Assembly (NCBI RefSeq): GCF_003260095.1
Contig: NZ_PTPX01000002.1
Location: 116,330-180,329, forward strand
Length of the DNA: 64,000 nt
Source of the DNA: Glaesserella australis
Lineage (GTDB): Bacteria; Pseudomonadota; Gammaproteobacteria; Enterobacterales; Pasteurellaceae
Direction of reading: 5' to 3'
Shown: positions 13,077 to 62,692 of the stretch, in pieces
Layout of the letters: each line of letters begins with the position of its first letter
Position numbering within the stretch: the stretch's first letter is position 1
Notes under the pieces: model-generated
Databases searched by the model: none
Told to the model about the DNA's origin: nothing
What the model saw: the letters and a program-made list of their open reading frames with translations, nothing else
Translations under genes and position numbers: made by a program

Positions 13077-13148
13077 GGTTTGCTGTTCTATGTAGCAAAT
13101 TAACTTGGATAACGTTCGTTTAAAAATTACAACTGTTTGTAACATTCC

Positions 13149-14383: not shown

Positions 14384-14449
14384 GTAGGGTGGGTCTTGAC
14401 CCACCGCTAACGAATGCAATTTTTAATGGTGGGTCAAGACCCACCCTAC
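14384..14449. repeat. Inverted pair of TAGGGTGGG-type palindromes
   Basis: A perfect 22-bp inverted repeat occupies 14384-14405 and 14428-14449; each arm is itself a palindrome (GGTGGGTC-TT-GACCCACC). The 22-base centre is unrelated. It lies in the 225-base space between the LysR gene and topA. A shorter relative sits at 44442-44471. Nested palindromes of this kind are typical of REP/REPIN sequences. Confidence 0.8.
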
Positions 14450-27155: not shown

Positions 27156-28001
27156 TTAGGGAGATAAATTAAGGGTTTGATGTAAAGGCGACAGGTTTTT
27201 GCCTTGAGCGACAAAGCCGTGAATATTTGTAGGCTTAAGGGCAAAAACTCGACGAGCTTCTTCTTCATCATCAAATTCGGCAAATACACAGGCACCAGTG
27301 CCGGTTAACCGAGACGGCGCATATTGTACCAACCAATTAAGCAGATCATCAACCTTTGAATACAGATCTCTAACAATTTTTTCGCAATCGTTTGCATAAG
27401 CTGTGTTGAGAAGTTCTGATAAAGGGCGTTTTGGTGTATCGCGGGTTAAATCTGGGTGATTAAAAATCGCTGCTGTGGCAATAGATTCATCTGGTTTTAA
27501 TACCACATACCATTTTTCTTTTGGCTGGCAAGGTGTCAGTTTTTCGCCAACGCCTTCAGCGAAAGCGGCAATACCATGCACAAAGATAGGCACATCAGCA
27601 CCGAGAGTGAGCCCGATTTCAGCAAGTTGTTCAAGAGAAAGCCCTGTTTTCCAAAGGACATTTAAGGCGACTAATACTGTTGCAGCATTTGATGAACCTC
27701 CCCCAACGCCTCCACCCATTGGCAAACGTTTTAGCACGCCAATTTTTGCCCCTTGCTGACAAGCGGTCTTTTCTTGCAATAATTTTGCAGCTCGGTAAAT
27801 CAAGTTCTGTTCAACAGGAACGCCGATGATTTCATTTGTGAGTTTAATATCAGGATCGTCGCTGATCTCAATATCAATCTCATCACCAAAATCAAGAAAT
27901 TGAAAGAGCGTTTGCAATTCGTGATAGCCATCTGACCGCTTGCCTGTGATATATAAAAACAGGTTAAGTTTTGCAGGGCTTGGAAAAGTGAGTTTCGTCA
28001 T
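27156..28001 (-). CDS. ispE: 4-diphosphocytidyl-2-C-methyl-D-erythritol kinase
   Basis: GHMP-family kinase of the MEP isoprenoid pathway, 281 aa. The start at 28001 ([17 protein letters not shown]) overlaps the lolB stop by one base (TAATG) and is preferred over a TTG four codons upstream. Motifs: [12 protein letters not shown], the ATP-binding [18 protein letters not shown], and [10 protein letters not shown] near the end. Two later or parallel pathway genes, ispD and ispF, lie at 41-42 kb. An uptake signal lies inside the gene near 27760. Confidence 0.96.
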
Positions 28002-28633
28002 TAGTAAGCCCAATTATCAATACGAATTTTTAAGGTTTGTGCGCCATTTTCCAATACAATCAGTTTGGGTAAATTTGGTGTACGATCTTCGTGATACTCA
28101 ACAAAGCTGGCTTTCCACACGGTTCCATTAACCGCATAATCAAATTGCGATAGTTGGCGTTTTTCATTAACGATATAGTTTGCATTTTTTTCAGGTTGAC
28201 CTTTTACCCAATAAGCGAATTGATCGATAGGGAAAGACACTCCGATGATTTCTTCCATTAATGCCGCCACATCGGCTTCTGTACGGGAGCGACCTTCGCT
28301 ATCAGAAATAGTCATTCCATAGCTGTTGCGCTGTAGTTTTAACGATTTACTGGAAAGGTTTGATGACATTGTTAAACCAAAATTGGTTGGTGTTTTGTAT
28401 TGCCAGTCAAAATGAGAGGAAAAACGTTCTTCAGGCGAAATATAGCCAAATTGTCCCTTTGCGGAATAAGCGTTGATTTTCGCTAATTGTGCAAGATGTT
28501 GCTGCCATTGTGGGTCATTATGTGGAATTTCAACGGTGGGCTTGGTGACTTCCGTCGGCGCATTTAATACCGAATTACAGCCGGTTAAAGCGAGTAACAC
28601 AGTCAGGGATAACAGTTTGGTTAGTTTTTTCAT
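28001..28633 (-). CDS. lolB: Outer-membrane lipoprotein LolB
   Basis: Receives lipoproteins from LolA and inserts them in the outer membrane. A lipoprotein signal with lipobox LTGC places the acylated Cys at residue 19; the following residue is Asn rather than Asp, so it should be sorted to the outer membrane. Length is 210 aa, matching E. coli LolB. Segments [18 protein letters not shown] and the conserved YWVKGQP are family-typical. First gene of lolB-ispE-prs. Confidence 0.94.
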
Positions 28634-28791: not shown

Positions 28792-28890
28792 CCGTGGGAA
28801 TACCCACGGTTAAGCATAGAAGCATTCCTTTGGAATGCCAAACTATCCCAAAGGGATAGCTCTATGCTTAACCTAGGGTAAAACCCTAGG
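28792..28890. repeat. Multi-hairpin interspersed element, copy A
   Basis: From left to right: palindrome CCGTGGG..CCCACGG (28792-28809), TTAAGCATAG (28810-28819), hairpin GCATTCC-TTT-GGAATGC, hairpin CTATCCC-AAA-GGGATAG, CTATGCTTAA (28862-28871 region), palindrome CCTAGGGT..ACCCTAGG (28872-28890). TTAAGCATAG pairs with CTATGCTTAA, closing a three-way structure. An inverted copy lies at 60782-60881 with compensating changes in both inner hairpins. It fills the middle of the 331-base gap between lolB and glnD; nothing else was seen there. Confidence 0.88.
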
Positions 28891-28964: not shown

Positions 28965-31535
28965 CTATTCCAACAACGTCATCAATCTTTGTTTTAACAT
29001 TCTCTGTTCTTCATCACTTAATGCGGTATCTTGTTGATTACTTACCACAAAGAAATCTTCAACACGTTCGCCGATAGTGGTGATTTTCGCATTGAGTAAG
29101 TTAAGATGAAGTTCGCTAAAAATATAGCCAATTTGTGCCAATAAGCCTTCTCGGTCAAGGGTAAACAGCTCGAAAGCGGTTTGATTTGGCTGAGAATTTG
29201 CTAAAAAGCGGATTTTGGTTTTACGTTTAAATGATTGATGTTTAACGGGTTTTTTATTCGGGCTAAAGGCTTTATTCATGCCAACCGTCAGTGTATTCAG
29301 TAACGCTGTGCGGATCTGTTCGCTACGTTCATTATCTAAAGGCTGTCCGTTCATTTCCGTAATAATAAAGCTATCAAGTACAAAACCATTTTCACTGGTG
29401 ATAATTTGTGCATCATGAATACTGACTTTCTTCTGGCTTAGGGTTTGAGCGATACGAGCAAACAGTTGCATTTGATCGGCGCAGTGAATAAAAATTTCGG
29501 TGGCTCCCCGAGCGTACTGATTGCTGATAAGCACCATCGGTAATTGTGGATATTTAAGGTAATGCAAGGCATGCCAATATAGTTGAGTTGGGCTATTTCG
29601 GACAAAATAACTTTCGGGGCAGCCTTGCCAAAATTGTGCCAGTAAAGCGTGTTGCTCTTCTGCAATCACTTGAGTAAGCTGTGAAAACGCTGCTTGTCGA
29701 TGATCTTGGCTCAATTTTTGATGATCGAGAGCCTGTTCATCGCCTAGCTGTAATTGCTGTTCAGTGAATTGGTATAGCTTCATAAAGAGCGAGCGTTTCC
29801 AATCATTCCATAAACTTTCATTTGTAGCGCAAATATCGGCAACGGTTAAGCAGGTTAGTGCGCTTAAAGCGGTGGGATTATTCACGATTTTTGCAAAGGT
29901 TTTAACCACATCAGGATCGTGAATATCTCGGCGTTGTGCCGTGATAGACATAGTTAAATGTTCTGCAACAAGCCATGCCATATAATCCGTTTCTTCTTGA
30001 TTAAAACCATGTTGTTCAGCAAAAAGTCGCATATCAACCGCACCAACCGTGGCATGCTCGCCTTCTCTACCTTTGGCGATATCATGAAAAAGCGCAGCCA
30101 AATAGAGCAGTGGGCGTTTTGGCAAGGTCGGAAAAATGTGGCAACAAAGTGGATGTTGCCCTGCATTTTCAATTTGTAAAAAACTTTCGAGTTTCAGCAT
30201 CACTCGAATGGTGTGTTCATCAACCGTATAAATATGAAAGAGATCAAACTGCATCAAGCCTTGAATACCTTTCCATTGTGGAATATAAGCGGTGAGTACG
30301 CCTAATTGATGCATAGGCACGATGGCTCTTTTTACCACGTCAGGTTGAGAAAACAGTTGGATAAAACGAGAGCGAGCTTGCGGTATTTCGCATAATGGGC
30401 GAGATAAACTTTGTAAAGCTAAGCGTAGCTGTCGTAATGTGGTGGTTTCTGCCACGCTCTGTGCGTGTTCAGTTAAATGGAAAAAGAGATCTAAAATGCG
30501 TTCAGGTTGTTGCTTAAAAATCAATGGGTTACTACAAATTAAGGTGTTATTTTGTAAGTAAAAGTACGGATCAAGCGGTTGTTTTTGTCCATTTTTTTGC
30601 AAAGGCGATAAAACCGTTTGCTCAAAGTGATCGAGCAAAAGTTGAGTAAGCACAGAAATAGATTGCGTTGCTTGAAAGAAATCTTTCATCATCGCTTCTA
30701 CAGGTTGATTGCCTTCACCTTGATAGCCAAGCTGTTCACTTAATTGTAATTGGCGATCAAAGCGCAGACGGTTGTCGTAGCGTTTAAGTTGTAGATGTAA
30801 GGCAAAGCGCATACGAAACAGCGTGCGTTGTGCTTGCTGAAGTTCTAAAAACTCTTCAGGGTAGAGTAGCCCTTTTTCAAAGAGATCATCTAAGCTGTGC
30901 AGACCATAGTGACGTAGCATGATCCAAGAAAGCAAATGCAGGTCACGTAGCCCACCGGGACTATGTTTGAGATCGGGTTCGAGATTATAGCTCGTGTTGT
31001 GATAACGGGCGTAACGTTCTGTTTTTTCCGCTATTTTAGCTGCAAAAAAGTGCTGAATTGCCCAAAAATCTGCATGAAACAGTTGACTTATCAGTTGTTG
31101 CCAAAGCCTTTCATTCCCTGTAAGAAAACGGCTTTCTAGCATATTGGTGGCAACAGAAATTTCCGCTCTACCAATTTCAAGGCATTCTGCAATGGTTCTT
31201 ATACTTGTGCCAAGCTGTAATTTGCTATCCCACAATAAATTAAACATCGCATTGAGTTGAGATTGGCTTTGTTCGTCTAATGGCTGTTCACTTAATACTA
31301 AAATATCGAGATCAGACAGCGGAAACATCTCTTTTCGCCCATATCCCCCGACGGCAATCAAGGCAAGATCTTGGCGATCAGCAAAACCAATTTGGTGCCA
31401 TAAATCAAGCAATAGTGAGTCGTAAAAATCACTACGTTGCGTTAACAGCGCCATGATATTTTTTTCAGTAAAGCAAGATTTTTGCACTAAGGTAAATTCG
31501 GTGAGTTGGGTTTTGAGTGTTTGACTGTCGATCAT
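28965..31535 (-). CDS. glnD: Bifunctional uridylyltransferase / uridylyl-removing enzyme GlnD
   Basis: Nitrogen sensor that uridylylates PII at low glutamine and reverses it at high glutamine. Length is 856 aa. Domains: nucleotidyltransferase with GGYGRKEMFPLSDLDIL (63-79; Asp75 and Asp77 bind metal), GlnD PII-uridylyltransferase helical region, HD domain with LFHDIAKGREGEH, and two C-terminal ACT domains (the second ends the protein). Nothing is truncated. It is monocistronic: the ushA terminator lies upstream and a repeat element downstream. Confidence 0.97.
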   Translation of the reverse strand: MIDSQTLKTQLTEFTLVQKSCFTEKNIMALLTQRSDFYDSLLLDLWHQIGFADRQDLALIAVGGYGRKEMFPLSDLDILVLSEQPLDEQSQSQLNAMFNLLWDSKLQLGTSIRTIAECLEIGRAEISVATNMLESRFLTGNERLWQQLISQLFHADFWAIQHFFAAKIAEKTERYARYHNTSYNLEPDLKHSPGGLRDLHLLSWIMLRHYGLHSLDDLFEKGLLYPEEFLELQQAQRTLFRMRFALHLQLKRYDNRLRFDRQLQLSEQLGYQGEGNQPVEAMMKDFFQATQSISVLTQLLLDHFEQTVLSPLQKNGQKQPLDPYFYLQNNTLICSNPLIFKQQPERILDLFFHLTEHAQSVAETTTLRQLRLALQSLSRPLCEIPQARSRFIQLFSQPDVVKRAIVPMHQLGVLTAYIPQWKGIQGLMQFDLFHIYTVDEHTIRVMLKLESFLQIENAGQHPLCCHIFPTLPKRPLLYLAALFHDIAKGREGEHATVGAVDMRLFAEQHGFNQEETDYMAWLVAEHLTMSITAQRRDIHDPDVVKTFAKIVNNPTALSALTCLTVADICATNESLWNDWKRSLFMKLYQFTEQQLQLGDEQALDHQKLSQDHRQAAFSQLTQVIAEEQHALLAQFWQGCPESYFVRNSPTQLYWHALHYLKYPQLPMVLISNQYARGATEIFIHCADQMQLFARIAQTLSQKKVSIHDAQIITSENGFVLDSFIITEMNGQPLDNERSEQIRTALLNTLTVGMNKAFSPNKKPVKHQSFKRKTKIRFLANSQPNQTAFELFTLDREGLLAQIGYIFSELHLNLLNAKITTIGERVEDFFVVSNQQDTALSDEEQRMLKQRLMTLLE

Positions 31536-44441: not shown

Positions 44442-44471
44442 TGTAGGGTGGACATCCTTGCCCACCCTACA
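44442..44471. repeat. TAGGGTGG-type palindrome
   Basis: TGTAGGGTGG and CCACCCTACA close a 30-base imperfect palindrome. The outer word is shared with the inverted pair at 14384-14449, so both belong to one repeat family. It lies between the pckA terminator and sirB2. Confidence 0.65.
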
Positions 44472-51359: not shown

Positions 51360-51447
51360 GGGACACGAAGCGTCGTGTCCCTACAATCGTTTTTCCCGTA
51401 AATTTTATGTTTAAGGTTATTGTAGGGACGCCACGCTTGGCGTCTCC
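51360..51447. repeat. Inverted hairpin pair (GGGACAC/GGGACGCC type)
   Basis: Hairpin 1: GGGACACGA / TCGTGTCCC, loop AGCG (51360-51381). Hairpin 2: GGGACGCCA / TGGCGTCTC, one mismatch, loop CGCT (51425-51446). Each is bordered inwardly by CTACAAT / ATTGTAG, making the halves inverted to each other around a 35-base centre. It lies between EIID and agp; a degenerate single relative lies at 52812-52836. Confidence 0.75.
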
Positions 51448-58535: not shown

Positions 58536-58567
58536 TTTTGTATTTGGGTATATTTGAGAGCAAATTT

Positions 58568-60721
58568 ATGAAATTCAAGCACAGCCTTCTCTATTCTGCA
58601 TTGTTTCTTTCTCCATTTGTGATGGCAGAAGGAAAAACATCTTTATCAGAAGTTACTGTTTCAACAGCAGTAGAAACGGAAAACAATGATGGAAGTTACC
58701 AATCTCGGATGAGTAACATCGCCAATAAAGGCGCCACTCCACTCATTGATTCTCCACAAACAGTGAATGTCGTAAATAGCCAACTTATTCGAGATCGCCA
58801 GCCACAAAGTTTAGATGAAGCACTAGCGACGGTAAGTGGAACGACACAGACCAATACCCTTGGCGGTTTAATGGATGCTGTTCTTAAACGTGGCTTTGGA
58901 GCAAATCGTGATAATTCAATTTTACGCAACGGCGTTGTCGCTGGCCCTTCACACAACTTTTCAGCCACGACTGAACGTGTTGAAGTGTTAAAAGGCCCTG
59001 CATCTGTGCTTTACGGTATTCAAGATCCCGGTGGTGTGATTAATGTGGTAACCAAAAAACCACAACAAGAAGCAAAATATGTATTAGGTGGTTCTGTTGG
59101 CAATAACAACGCATGGGGCTTAAATTTTGATGCTACAGGTGCATTAGGACATGGTTTTGCATATCGCTTTATTTACGATCAAAACGATAAAGACTATTGG
59201 CGTAACTTTGGCGAAGTAAAACGTACTATGTACGCCCCATCTCTATCTTGGCAAAACGATAAAACAGAAGTTGTGCTCAGCTATGAACATCAAGAATATA
59301 CGGATCCCTTTGATCGTGGAACCTATATCATTGCCAATGGTACAGGCAAAGGCACCATTGTAAATATTCCAAAAGAGCGACGTTTAGATGAGCCATTTAA
59401 TGAAGCAACAGGGAAAATTGATGTTGTTTCACTTCAAGCTAGCCATAAATTAAATGACAGTTGGAAATTGAATGCGACCTATGGTTATACTAAAGATACA
59501 TATAACTATTGGCAAGCTCGTGTAACGACAATTAATTTGAACAAAGATAGTGTCACACGCCGTTTAGAAGGAATCCAAGGCTCAGAACAGCGTAATCATA
59601 GTGGTAGCATTAATGCAGTAGGCGAATTTGCTACAGGCGATATTGCTCATCGTATGGTGATTGGCGTAGATCTTGCTCGCACAACGTTAGATATTGCACG
59701 CTATCAAGGTAGTAACAGTTCTATTTCATTAAGCAACCCTGTTTATAACACGGCATCTGTAGCGAATATGCCATTAGCAACGAATAACGGTCATCAATTT
59801 GCTACCTTAAAAACGGCAGGTATCTATCTCCAAGATTCTGCTTATTTAACGGACAAATTAATTTTATCAGGCGGTATTCGTTATGAATATTACGATCAAG
59901 AAGCGGGGCGTGGTGGTAGAACAGTTGCGGAACGTTTATATACTGATGGACACGATGGTAAATTTTTATATCAAGGCAGAATTGTCTATAAATTTACACC
60001 AGACTGGGCTGTCTATGGTAACTACGCACAATCATTCCGTCCGCATTTAAGCCGTGCAGCCATTACGGATTCAAGCTTAAAACCAGAACAGGGTGAATCG
60101 TTTGAAATTGGCACAAAATATGAAAATGCCTTTTTCAGTACCAATTTAGCCTTATTCAACATTAATAAGAAAAATGTTGCAGACACCTATACGGGAACAG
60201 ATGGCTATAGTTATCAATACCTTGTTGGTAAAGTCAATTCACGTGGACTCGAATGGGACTTACACGGTCGTTTAACGGAAAAATTAGGCGTCACTGCAAC
60301 CTATGCTTACACTGACACAAAAACCAAAGAAAATAGCAAATACAGCTATTTCAATGGTAAGGAATTTGAAGGTGTACCACAGCATCAAGCGAGTTTATTC
60401 TTAACCTATGATTTAGGGCAATTTGCCTTTGGCAATATCCGTGTCGGTGCAGGGGTGAGATATTTAGGTTCTTGGACGGTTTATAACACCTACGATGAAG
60501 CGAATATCGAAGCGTATAAACTTCCGCACGCCGTGGTTACAGATGCGTTTATTGCTTATGAAACACAATTAAGCGGTAAAAAAGTTAGCTTACAGCTTAA
60601 CGGTAAAAATCTCGGTGATAAAACGTATTATGTATCAACACAAGGGACAAGTAACAGCGTGATTCCAATTGCCTATGGTAATGGACGTGAGTTCCTGTTA
60701 AACGCAAAAGTGGAATTTTAA
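58568..60721 (+). CDS. TonB-dependent siderophore receptor
   Basis: Outer-membrane importer of ferric siderophores, 717 aa. The ATG at 58568 (MKFKHSLLYSALFLSPFVMAEG) starts a clear signal peptide (about 1-20); the upstream in-frame start lacks one. TonB box-like EVTVST follows, then a plug (about 45-155, with DSPQTVNVV and the VEVLKGPASVLYG block) and a 22-strand barrel ending in NAKVEF. The plug sequence is that of the FhuA/FpvA-type siderophore group, not haem or transferrin receptors. The siderophore itself is unknown. The Fur box upstream indicates iron repression. The next gene is an ABC exporter/importer-like protein. Confidence 0.92.
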   Translation: MKFKHSLLYSALFLSPFVMAEGKTSLSEVTVSTAVETENNDGSYQSRMSNIANKGATPLIDSPQTVNVVNSQLIRDRQPQSLDEALATVSGTTQTNTLGGLMDAVLKRGFGANRDNSILRNGVVAGPSHNFSATTERVEVLKGPASVLYGIQDPGGVINVVTKKPQQEAKYVLGGSVGNNNAWGLNFDATGALGHGFAYRFIYDQNDKDYWRNFGEVKRTMYAPSLSWQNDKTEVVLSYEHQEYTDPFDRGTYIIANGTGKGTIVNIPKERRLDEPFNEATGKIDVVSLQASHKLNDSWKLNATYGYTKDTYNYWQARVTTINLNKDSVTRRLEGIQGSEQRNHSGSINAVGEFATGDIAHRMVIGVDLARTTLDIARYQGSNSSISLSNPVYNTASVANMPLATNNGHQFATLKTAGIYLQDSAYLTDKLILSGGIRYEYYDQEAGRGGRTVAERLYTDGHDGKFLYQGRIVYKFTPDWAVYGNYAQSFRPHLSRAAITDSSLKPEQGESFEIGTKYENAFFSTNLALFNINKKNVADTYTGTDGYSYQYLVGKVNSRGLEWDLHGRLTEKLGVTATYAYTDTKTKENSKYSYFNGKEFEGVPQHQASLFLTYDLGQFAFGNIRVGAGVRYLGSWTVYNTYDEANIEAYKLPHAVVTDAFIAYETQLSGKKVSLQLNGKNLGDKTYYVSTQGTSNSVIPIAYGNGREFLLNAKVEF

Positions 60722-60781: not shown

Positions 60782-60881
60782 CCTAGGGTATAACCCTAGG
60801 TTAAGCATAGAAATTTCCCTTTGGGAAATCAGTCAACACCGAAGGTGTTGTTTTATGCTTAACCGTGGGTTATACCCATGG
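60782..60881. repeat. Multi-hairpin interspersed element, copy B
   Basis: Reverse-oriented relative of 28792-28890: CCTAGGGT..ACCCTAGG (60782-60800), TTAAGCATAG (60801-60810), hairpin ATTTCCC-TTT-GGGAAAT, hairpin CAACACC-GAA-GGTGTTG, TATGCTTAA, CCGTGGG..CCCATGG (60863-60881). Inner hairpins differ from copy A on both sides of each stem, so pairing is kept. It fills the space between the siderophore receptor and the ABC gene, ending 21 bases before the latter. Confidence 0.88.
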
Positions 60882-60901
60882 CATTTTAAGTGTTATCTCT
60901 T

Positions 60902-62692
60902 ATGAACAACTGGCAAACGGAAGTCAATAACAGTCTCTACTGGTTAGCTATCGCCCTGACGTGCGTCTCACTCGGGCTATATCTCACCGGCAAATTAATC
61001 GGTCGCACCACCTTTGGACAACGATTTTGGCATATCACCAAACCTTGTTGGGATAAATCCAACAAAGTCAAAACCGTCGCATTGGTGCTACTGCTTCTGC
61101 TGATGGCACTCATGGAAGTGCGGATCAGCGTACTCAACACCTTTTTCTACAATGGCTTGTACAGCTCGCTACAAAAGCAACAAGCGGACGCTTTCTGGTT
61201 TTTTGCGATCATCAATTTGATGTTGGTGATTGTCAAAATAATCCACTCCATTATCAACTATTTTATTCAGCAGGTCTTTGAAATTCGTTGGCTTGAAAAG
61301 CTCAACCACGAAATGTTAGATCGCTGGCTGGCAAATAAAAATTACTATCTCGTCAAATACGAAAAAACCTTGCCCGACAACATCGATCAACGTATCGAAC
61401 AAGATGCGACCGAATTTATCGGCGGAACCCTTGATGTCGTGCGTGGCGTGATCAATGCGGTGGTTTCGACCATTGAATTTACCATTATCCTGTGGGGCTT
61501 ATCGGGGATCTTGGCGATCTTCGGACTGGAAATCCCAAAAGGCGTGGTGTTCTTTATCTATATTTTTATCATTGTCGCAACGTTGTTGTCGGTGATTATC
61601 GGTCGTCCACTGATTGCGTTGAATTTCAACAAAGAGAAGCTACAAGGGGATTACCGTTATTCACTTATTCGTGTGCGAGACAACGCTGAAAGTATTGCGT
61701 TCTATTCAGGGGAAGCGAAAGAGCAGGGCAACCTACGGGCGAAGTTTAATGCGGTGATTGATAATCGCTGGAAAATTGTACAAAAAATGTTGGGCTTGGA
61801 CGGTTTCAACACAGGGGTAACACAAATTGCGATGATTTTACCGCTGATGTTGCAGTCGCAACGTTTCTTTGCAGGGCAAGTGACACTCGGCGATATGCAC
61901 CAAACGGTACAATCATTTAACCGCTTGATGCGAGCCTTGTCGTTTTTCCGTCTGTTTTACGATGAATTTACCCTTTATCAAGCAAGGCTCAACCGTCTTT
62001 ACGGCTTTTTCACCACCCTTGATAACCTTGACAAAATGCCTGTTCATCAACCTTATCCATGTACCACAGGCTTTATGCTTAAAGACTTTGGCATGAAAGA
62101 TGTTAATGGTAAAATTTTGATGCAGAACATCAACATCGAGCTAAAACAGGGCGATGCTTTGCTTATTCAAGGGGCATCTGGCACAGGCAAAACGTCACTA
62201 CTTAAAGCTCTCGCAGGGATCTATCCTTTTGAAACCTTTGGTATTGCCGAACGCCCGTGTAGCGAACAGCCACTGTTCTTACCGCAACGTCCTTATATGC
62301 CACAAGGCACGTTGCGAGAAGCCATTTGTTATCCACATATTGACGCAAGCGATGAACAGATCAAACAGGCAATGGAAAAATGTTGTTTAGACAAATATAT
62401 CCACACCCTTGATCAAGATAACGACTGGCAACTCACGCTTTCACCAGGTGAGTTACAACGTGTCGCATTTGTACGGATTTTATTAAGCAAACCTGAGCTG
62501 ATTTTCTTAGATGAAACCACATCAGCCCTTGATGAACCGACGGAATCTATTCTTTACCAAACTATTCGGGAAGAGTTGCCAAATAGCACAATTATCAGCG
62601 TCGGACACCGCTGTACGCTCTACCCATTTCATAACAAACGCATTAATTTAAATATCGGCTGTTGTGGTGTAGAAGAGTGTTGTATGAAATAA
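60902..62692 (+). CDS. ABC transporter, SbmA/BacA-type membrane domain fused to ATPase
   Basis: Full half-transporter, 596 aa from the ATG at 60902 (a GTG four codons earlier is less likely). N-terminal membrane domain (about 10-330, six helices) of the SbmA_BacA group with FEIRWLEKLNHEMLDRWL and RIEQDATEF; C-terminal ATPase with Walker A GASGTGKTS, signature LSPGELQRV, Walker B LIFLDETTSALDE and H-loop SVGHR. Same architecture as E. coli YddA, H. influenzae HI0036 and mycobacterial Rv1819c, which imports hydrophilic compounds such as cobalamin or peptides. Following a siderophore receptor, it might move a siderophore, but that is inference. The C-terminal tail has an unusual Cys cluster (CCGVEECC). 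Confidence 0.9.
   Translation: MNNWQTEVNNSLYWLAIALTCVSLGLYLTGKLIGRTTFGQRFWHITKPCWDKSNKVKTVALVLLLLLMALMEVRISVLNTFFYNGLYSSLQKQQADAFWFFAIINLMLVIVKIIHSIINYFIQQVFEIRWLEKLNHEMLDRWLANKNYYLVKYEKTLPDNIDQRIEQDATEFIGGTLDVVRGVINAVVSTIEFTIILWGLSGILAIFGLEIPKGVVFFIYIFIIVATLLSVIIGRPLIALNFNKEKLQGDYRYSLIRVRDNAESIAFYSGEAKEQGNLRAKFNAVIDNRWKIVQKMLGLDGFNTGVTQIAMILPLMLQSQRFFAGQVTLGDMHQTVQSFNRLMRALSFFRLFYDEFTLYQARLNRLYGFFTTLDNLDKMPVHQPYPCTTGFMLKDFGMKDVNGKILMQNINIELKQGDALLIQGASGTGKTSLLKALAGIYPFETFGIAERPCSEQPLFLPQRPYMPQGTLREAICYPHIDASDEQIKQAMEKCCLDKYIHTLDQDNDWQLTLSPGELQRVAFVRILLSKPELIFLDETTSALDEPTESILYQTIREELPNSTIISVGHRCTLYPFHNKRINLNIGCCGVEECCMK

Follow-up and report, generated by a model that had tools for sequence, protein, structure and literature searches.

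The two multi-hairpin copies in the window (the whole 64,000-nucleotide stretch of Glaesserella australis DNA analysed here) very probably belong to a dispersed, REP/BIME-like non-autonomous mobile element that lacks the GTAG tag and is run by a TnpA of subclass 1.2. The first-pass annotation had proposed a structured, probably mobilised element. The existence of a family, its structure and its link to a transposase gene bear this out, whereas the three-way closing stem of that annotation does not stand as a conserved pairing, and the transposase is not a classical RAYT.

Anatomy and pairing of the two-hairpin unit

The two copies lie at 28792–28890 and 60782–60881 in opposite orientation, and contain the words and hairpins that the first-pass annotation had quoted for them. 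The double changes reported between them are likewise real (GCATTCC/GGAATGC versus CAACACC/GGTGTTG, and CTATCCC/GGGATAG versus ATTTCCC/GGGAAAT); sequence varies among the four inner hairpins, yet each keeps its pairing. When folded as RNA, the copies give z-scores of −10.1 and −9.6, and no shuffled sequence folded as well. Each copy consists of two units placed head-to-head, and each unit contains, in order, hairpin A (18–25 nt), the linker TTAAGCATA followed by 3 nt, and hairpin B (7 bp with a 3-nt loop).

In element 1, unit a (28792–28838, plus strand, E = 7.3e-5) comprises hairpin A CCGTGGGAATACCCACGG at 28792–28809, the linker TTAAGCATA at 28810–28818, a spacer, and hairpin B GCATTCCTTTGGAATGC at 28822–28838; it is identical to the unit upstream of the tnpA gene on contig C21. 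The inverted unit b (28843–28890, minus strand, E = 4.5e-6) comprises hairpin B at 28843–28859, the linker at 28863–28871, and hairpin A (CCTAGGG..CCCTAGG) at 28872–28890, and its hairpin B is the same as the one beside the C21 tnpA. Element 2 has the same layout, with hairpin A CCTAGGGTATAACCCTAGG at 60782–60800, the linker TTAAGCATA at 60801–60809 and hairpin B ATTTCCCTTTGGGAAAT at 60813–60829 in unit a (60782–60829, plus strand, E = 7.3e-6), and hairpin B at 60834–60850, the linker at 60854–60862 and hairpin A at 60863–60881 in the inverted unit b (60834–60881, minus strand, E = 4.8e-6). A covariance model run over the window finds these four units and nothing else of note. Element 1 lies between two genes on the minus strand, both outside the element: glnD (PII uridylyltransferase, 28965–31535), whose stop codon is 74 bp away, and the element's downstream neighbour lolB (28001–28633), which reads in the same direction. 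The neighbours of element 2 are both on the plus strand, a TonB-dependent receptor gene (58538–60721) that stops 60 bp before it and an SbmA/BacA-like ABC transporter gene (60890–62692) whose ORF starts 8 bp past it. The window also holds a repeated hairpin containing CCCCCGTTTACGGGGG or a close variant, at 13148, 17846 and 55311.

Pairing in hairpin B was measured in 88 units (78 distinct sequences) that had been picked by hairpin A and linker only, blind to hairpin B. At a fixed offset of 12 nt, 89% of cells show canonical pairing, as against 34–45% with the frame shifted by 1–3 bases and a maximum of 61.5% over 1000 shuffles. The stem is formed by 45 distinct 5′ arms, with several pair types at every position; checked against the refuting condition of non-compensated stem changes, hairpin B proved compensated. 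An orthologous element in a congener (G002) carries double changes at three stem positions relative to the G. australis copy, at a site whose flanks are ∼89% identical. G–T and A–C cells are both rare in hairpin B, with eight of each; in these small numbers G–T is no commoner than A–C, which gives no hint of RNA-like G–U tolerance or of selection at the RNA level.

The outer stem behaves differently from hairpin B. The first-pass annotation had seen in it a conserved three-way closing stem, formed by TTAAGCATAG and CTATGCTTAA; this pairing is one unit's linker facing the inverted linker of the other unit. It contains 17 mismatches in 171 columns and is exact in eight of 19 doublets. We rejected the three-way junction as a conserved fold because its closing stem is mismatched in the other 11. 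Since hairpin B is compensated but the facing linkers are so often mismatched, the conserved module is the half-unit of hairpin A, linker and hairpin B.

Dispersal and probable mobility

A first search pattern recovered four doublets, and many half-copies came up with a relaxed word. With eleven long-type units as the basis of a covariance model, 48 unit matches at E ≤ 0.01 are found in the G. australis genome. The element is therefore not limited to two copies, and its number exceeds the twenty or more that the first-pass annotation had set as a threshold. The same model finds matches in two congeners (21 and 32) and in members of three further genera (19, 3 and 2); the remaining fifteen genomes searched with it gave none. 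No Rfam family matches the elements.

Units occur singly, as head-to-head pairs, or in tandem arrays (e.g., C20:142014-142481), nearly all of them intergenic, and one tandem array adjoins a transposase gene. Single units outnumber doublets (50 versus 19), although chance hits and half-scored doublets make up part of the singles. Among 26 elements placed relative to genes, called by a simple ORF rule, five overlap ORFs, and in those cases only short or start-extended ones or the ends of ORFs; 22 of the 26 lie between co-directional genes, and a stop codon is often no more than 10 bp away. Such placement resembles that of REPs, and would be compatible with the role at 3′ ends that had been suggested for the element.

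Several intergenic sites carry an element in G. australis and none at the orthologous position in a sister species. Two close congeners differ at one site by precisely one unit (62 bp), and their sequence at the join is otherwise unchanged; this difference may be a loss, as G. australis also has a doublet there. Most of the genomes compared belong to different species (identity about 85%); they yielded no transposition event whose ends could be placed to the base, and exact insertion ends could not be read from the empty sites.

GTAG-tagged palindromes also occur in these genomes. At 14384–14449 the window has a doublet that exactly matches the REP GTAGGGTGGGTCTTGACCCACC published for Haemophilus parasuis (PMC2817692), and further GTAG-tagged palindromes lie on one or both strands at 44443–44470 and 51360–51384 (GTAGGGTGG..., GTAGGGACACGAC...). 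GTAG REP doublets of the GGACACAC type occur at L019 172–258 and at the orthologous site in L113 and L118, with occupancy differing between congeners. One G. australis site with a two-hairpin element has a GTAG doublet instead in two relatives (G001 and G002).

The subclass 1.2 transposase genes and their flanking units

The G. australis genome encodes exactly three Y1 (HUH) transposases. A Y1 gene flanked by the same palindromes was what the first-pass annotation had advised looking for, and identical or near-identical units stand beside all three. The gene on contig C17 (L036), which from its neighbours we take to lie between hslV and hslU, is bracketed as A-linker-B-[tnpA]-B′-linker′-A′. 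Sorted by the type that flanks each gene, the units of this genome number 20, 9 and 9. The window's four units all sort with the C21 type, and one of them is identical to it.

The signature of TnpA_Y1 subclass 1.2, YIKNQK.HH (PMC6006769), is present in all three proteins, which also pass the NCBIfam cut-off for IS200/IS605 transposases. They share with that subclass the Y---Q--HH pattern, DH[IV]H and a length of about 148 aa; their HUH motif reads DHIH or DHLH, the leucine being a small departure from the survey consensus (I or V). Against the NCBIfam RAYT model NF047646 they score 19.7–27.1 bits, with a cut-off of 80, and they have YIKNQK instead of the Y---NP motif. No class 2 RAYT exceeds the Pfam cut-off in this genome. 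The proposed link to a Y1 gene is supported, and the enzyme is a TnpA_Y1 of subclass 1.2 rather than a classical RAYT. The HUH and tyrosine motifs align with those of ISDra2 TnpA, and the active-site motifs are intact in nine of nine aligned TnpA proteins. The three genes occupy separate fixed sites and are 55–56% identical to the first of them; autonomous mobile tnpA copies with identical ends were not found for any of the three. In a phylogenetic tree, the Pasteurellaceae proteins form one clade in which the three G. australis proteins sit on three branches. In this tree, built without the survey's own sequences, they fall together with Bacteroidota proteins that carry this signature and are separate from class 1.1 and class 2.

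The association between gene and unit extends beyond this genome. Eighty loci were chosen by protein search with their flanks disregarded, and were then scanned with a fixed grammar. A two-hairpin unit is present in 91 of 156 flanks of subclass 1.2 genes, versus 18 of 450 control windows elsewhere in the same loci, and the association spans other Pasteurellaceae and Bacteroidota, two phyla. At 15 other Y1 loci, six of 30 flanks have units, in windows nearly twice as long and with four of the six from copies in one genome. Across 81 Pasteurellaceae genomes, units occur in 24 of the 26 that have a subclass 1.2 gene and in 18 of the 55 that lack one, with relatedness incompletely corrected; unit and TnpA distances are correlated (Mantel r = 0.50, p = 2e-4), with shared ancestry incompletely removed. 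The 18 genomes that have units without a detectable subclass 1.2 gene imply that units persist without the gene or that another enzyme acts on them. Three of these (G033, G074 and G078) hold 41, 31 and 17 unit matches, lack the gene at E ≤ 1e-20 and encode other Y1 proteins. Several unit-rich genomes are of this kind, and a congener often has the gene.

Units beside other subclass 1.2 genes (L089, L090, L088, L201 and L208) have other linkers (TTAATCTAG, CTCGATAAACC, TTCCACAATCC), which suggests that recognition may be gene-specific. The linker pattern from Chryseobacterium occurs exactly only in two gene-flanking copies, and that pattern reveals no dispersed family. In the Bacteroidota loci (L222–L272), it is mostly hairpin A that adjoins tnpA with hairpin B outside, the reverse of the Pasteurellaceae order.

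Proposed mechanism, alternatives and known systems

We propose that the substrate is most likely the unit folded as single-stranded DNA, with its hairpins ∼12 nt apart across the conserved linker. The small HUH/Y1 transposase of subclass 1.2 would recognise folded units and cut and paste, or copy, them between sites, with binding, cleavage and strand transfer as its predicted steps; the linker may act as a guide or recognition sequence. The tnpA gene itself resides at a small number of fixed chromosomal sites and has units of the same kind on its borders, a REPtron-like arrangement. Each of the three G. australis genes, on three branches of the tree, has a unit type of its own, and the window elements match that of the C21 gene. 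Weighing against this reading are the lack of a captured transposition event with exact ends, the 18 genomes with units but no detectable subclass 1.2 gene, the incomplete correction for relatedness and the reversed unit order in Bacteroidota.

The units could instead be remnants, MITE-like and internally deleted, of a tnpA element that was once mobile; they would now be inert, having spread only through past activity or recombination. The C17 gene does sit between B and B′, where doublets have a short gap, and several genomes have units without the gene. We nonetheless consider this rather unlikely: single units exceed doublets (even if chance hits and doublets scored by half account for some of them), the tandem arrays and the sites confined to one species point to activity in recent lineages, and the active-site motifs remain intact in every aligned TnpA. 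A role purely at the RNA level, in which a 3′-UTR stabiliser, attenuator or terminator is kept for its fold and the tnpA link is incidental, would account for the compensated stems, for positions often ≤10 nt from stop codons and for the 22 of 26 elements between co-directional genes. It is very improbable, however, given that units of the same type flank tnpA in many species of two phyla, that sites are occupied or empty at orthologous positions, that G–T cells in hairpin B equal A–C cells (8 versus 8), that neither window element is followed by a T-run, and that Rfam has no match. A classical GTAG-tagged REP/REPIN mobilised by a class 2 RAYT follows the same general logic of palindrome doublets near a Y1 gene, and canonical GTAG REPs do occur in the window (14384–14449), but this reading is scarcely tenable when at most three of 88 units have GT[AG]G at the hairpin foot (GTAG/GTGG 0–2 nt 5′ of it), the unit is two hairpins and a linker, and the only three Y1 genes are all of the subclass 1.2 type and miss the NCBIfam RAYT cut-off.

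With mobilisation by the subclass 1.2 TnpA as the preferred reading, a subclass without a reported DNA partner likely gains a concrete candidate substrate. The same reading suggests that RAYTs are not the only Y1 proteins to have undergone REP-type domestication, which would also have arisen on the IS200 side of the family. The element also accounts for a set of structured repeats, found between genes in many Pasteurellaceae, which might otherwise be taken for RNA genes; several enzyme-element pairs within one genome offer material for specificity studies. We regard as evenly balanced the broader proposition that subclass 1.2 constitutes a second, general lineage of REP mobilisers across two or more phyla, with a composite two-hairpin substrate of fixed spacing, specificity set by the linker and not by a GTAG foot, and several orthogonal enzyme-element pairs per genome.

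A literature search for a Pasteurellaceae element of this two-hairpin kind, with subscription papers outside its scope, returned only GTAG REPs, and a text search for TTAAGCATA as a motif gave no relevant paper among the matches listed. Like GTAG REPs, BIMEs/REPINs and the REPtrons of RAYTs (TnpA_REP), the units are short extragenic palindromes found singly, in inverted pairs and in tandem arrays: they are dispersed, mostly intergenic and numerous (48 matches), and their inverted pairs, some in tandem (19 doublets), are of the BIME/REPIN form. As in RAYT REPtrons, they adjoin a single-copy Y1 gene and vary with it. They differ in having two hairpins and a linker starting with TTA in place of a GT[AG]G tag, and in a protein of class 1 rather than class 2. 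With IS200/IS605 elements (TnpA subclass 1.1: IS608, ISDra2), which provide the closest solved protein structures, they share the HUH, tyrosine and glutamine motifs and subterminal hairpins around the gene; here, the gene has no identical mobile copies, is far outnumbered by non-autonomous units and encodes the YIKNQK.HH signature. TIRYT genes (TIRtrons) are Y1 genes with flanking inverted repeats and no GTAG, some in dispersed families; Di Nocera et al. (2013, PMC3733652) characterise these as long terminal inverted repeats, by which description they would differ from the two-hairpin unit. As surveyed, TnpA_Y1 subclass 1.2 has the signature, the length of about 150 aa and the low copy number seen here, and it is likewise present in Bacteroidota. 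Corneloup et al. (2018, PMC6006769) recorded it as REP ‘no’ and mainly from Cyanobacteria and Bacteroidetes, using an automatic REP search that needed a GT[AG]G tag; here, its genes are flanked by two-hairpin units and are common in Pasteurellaceae.
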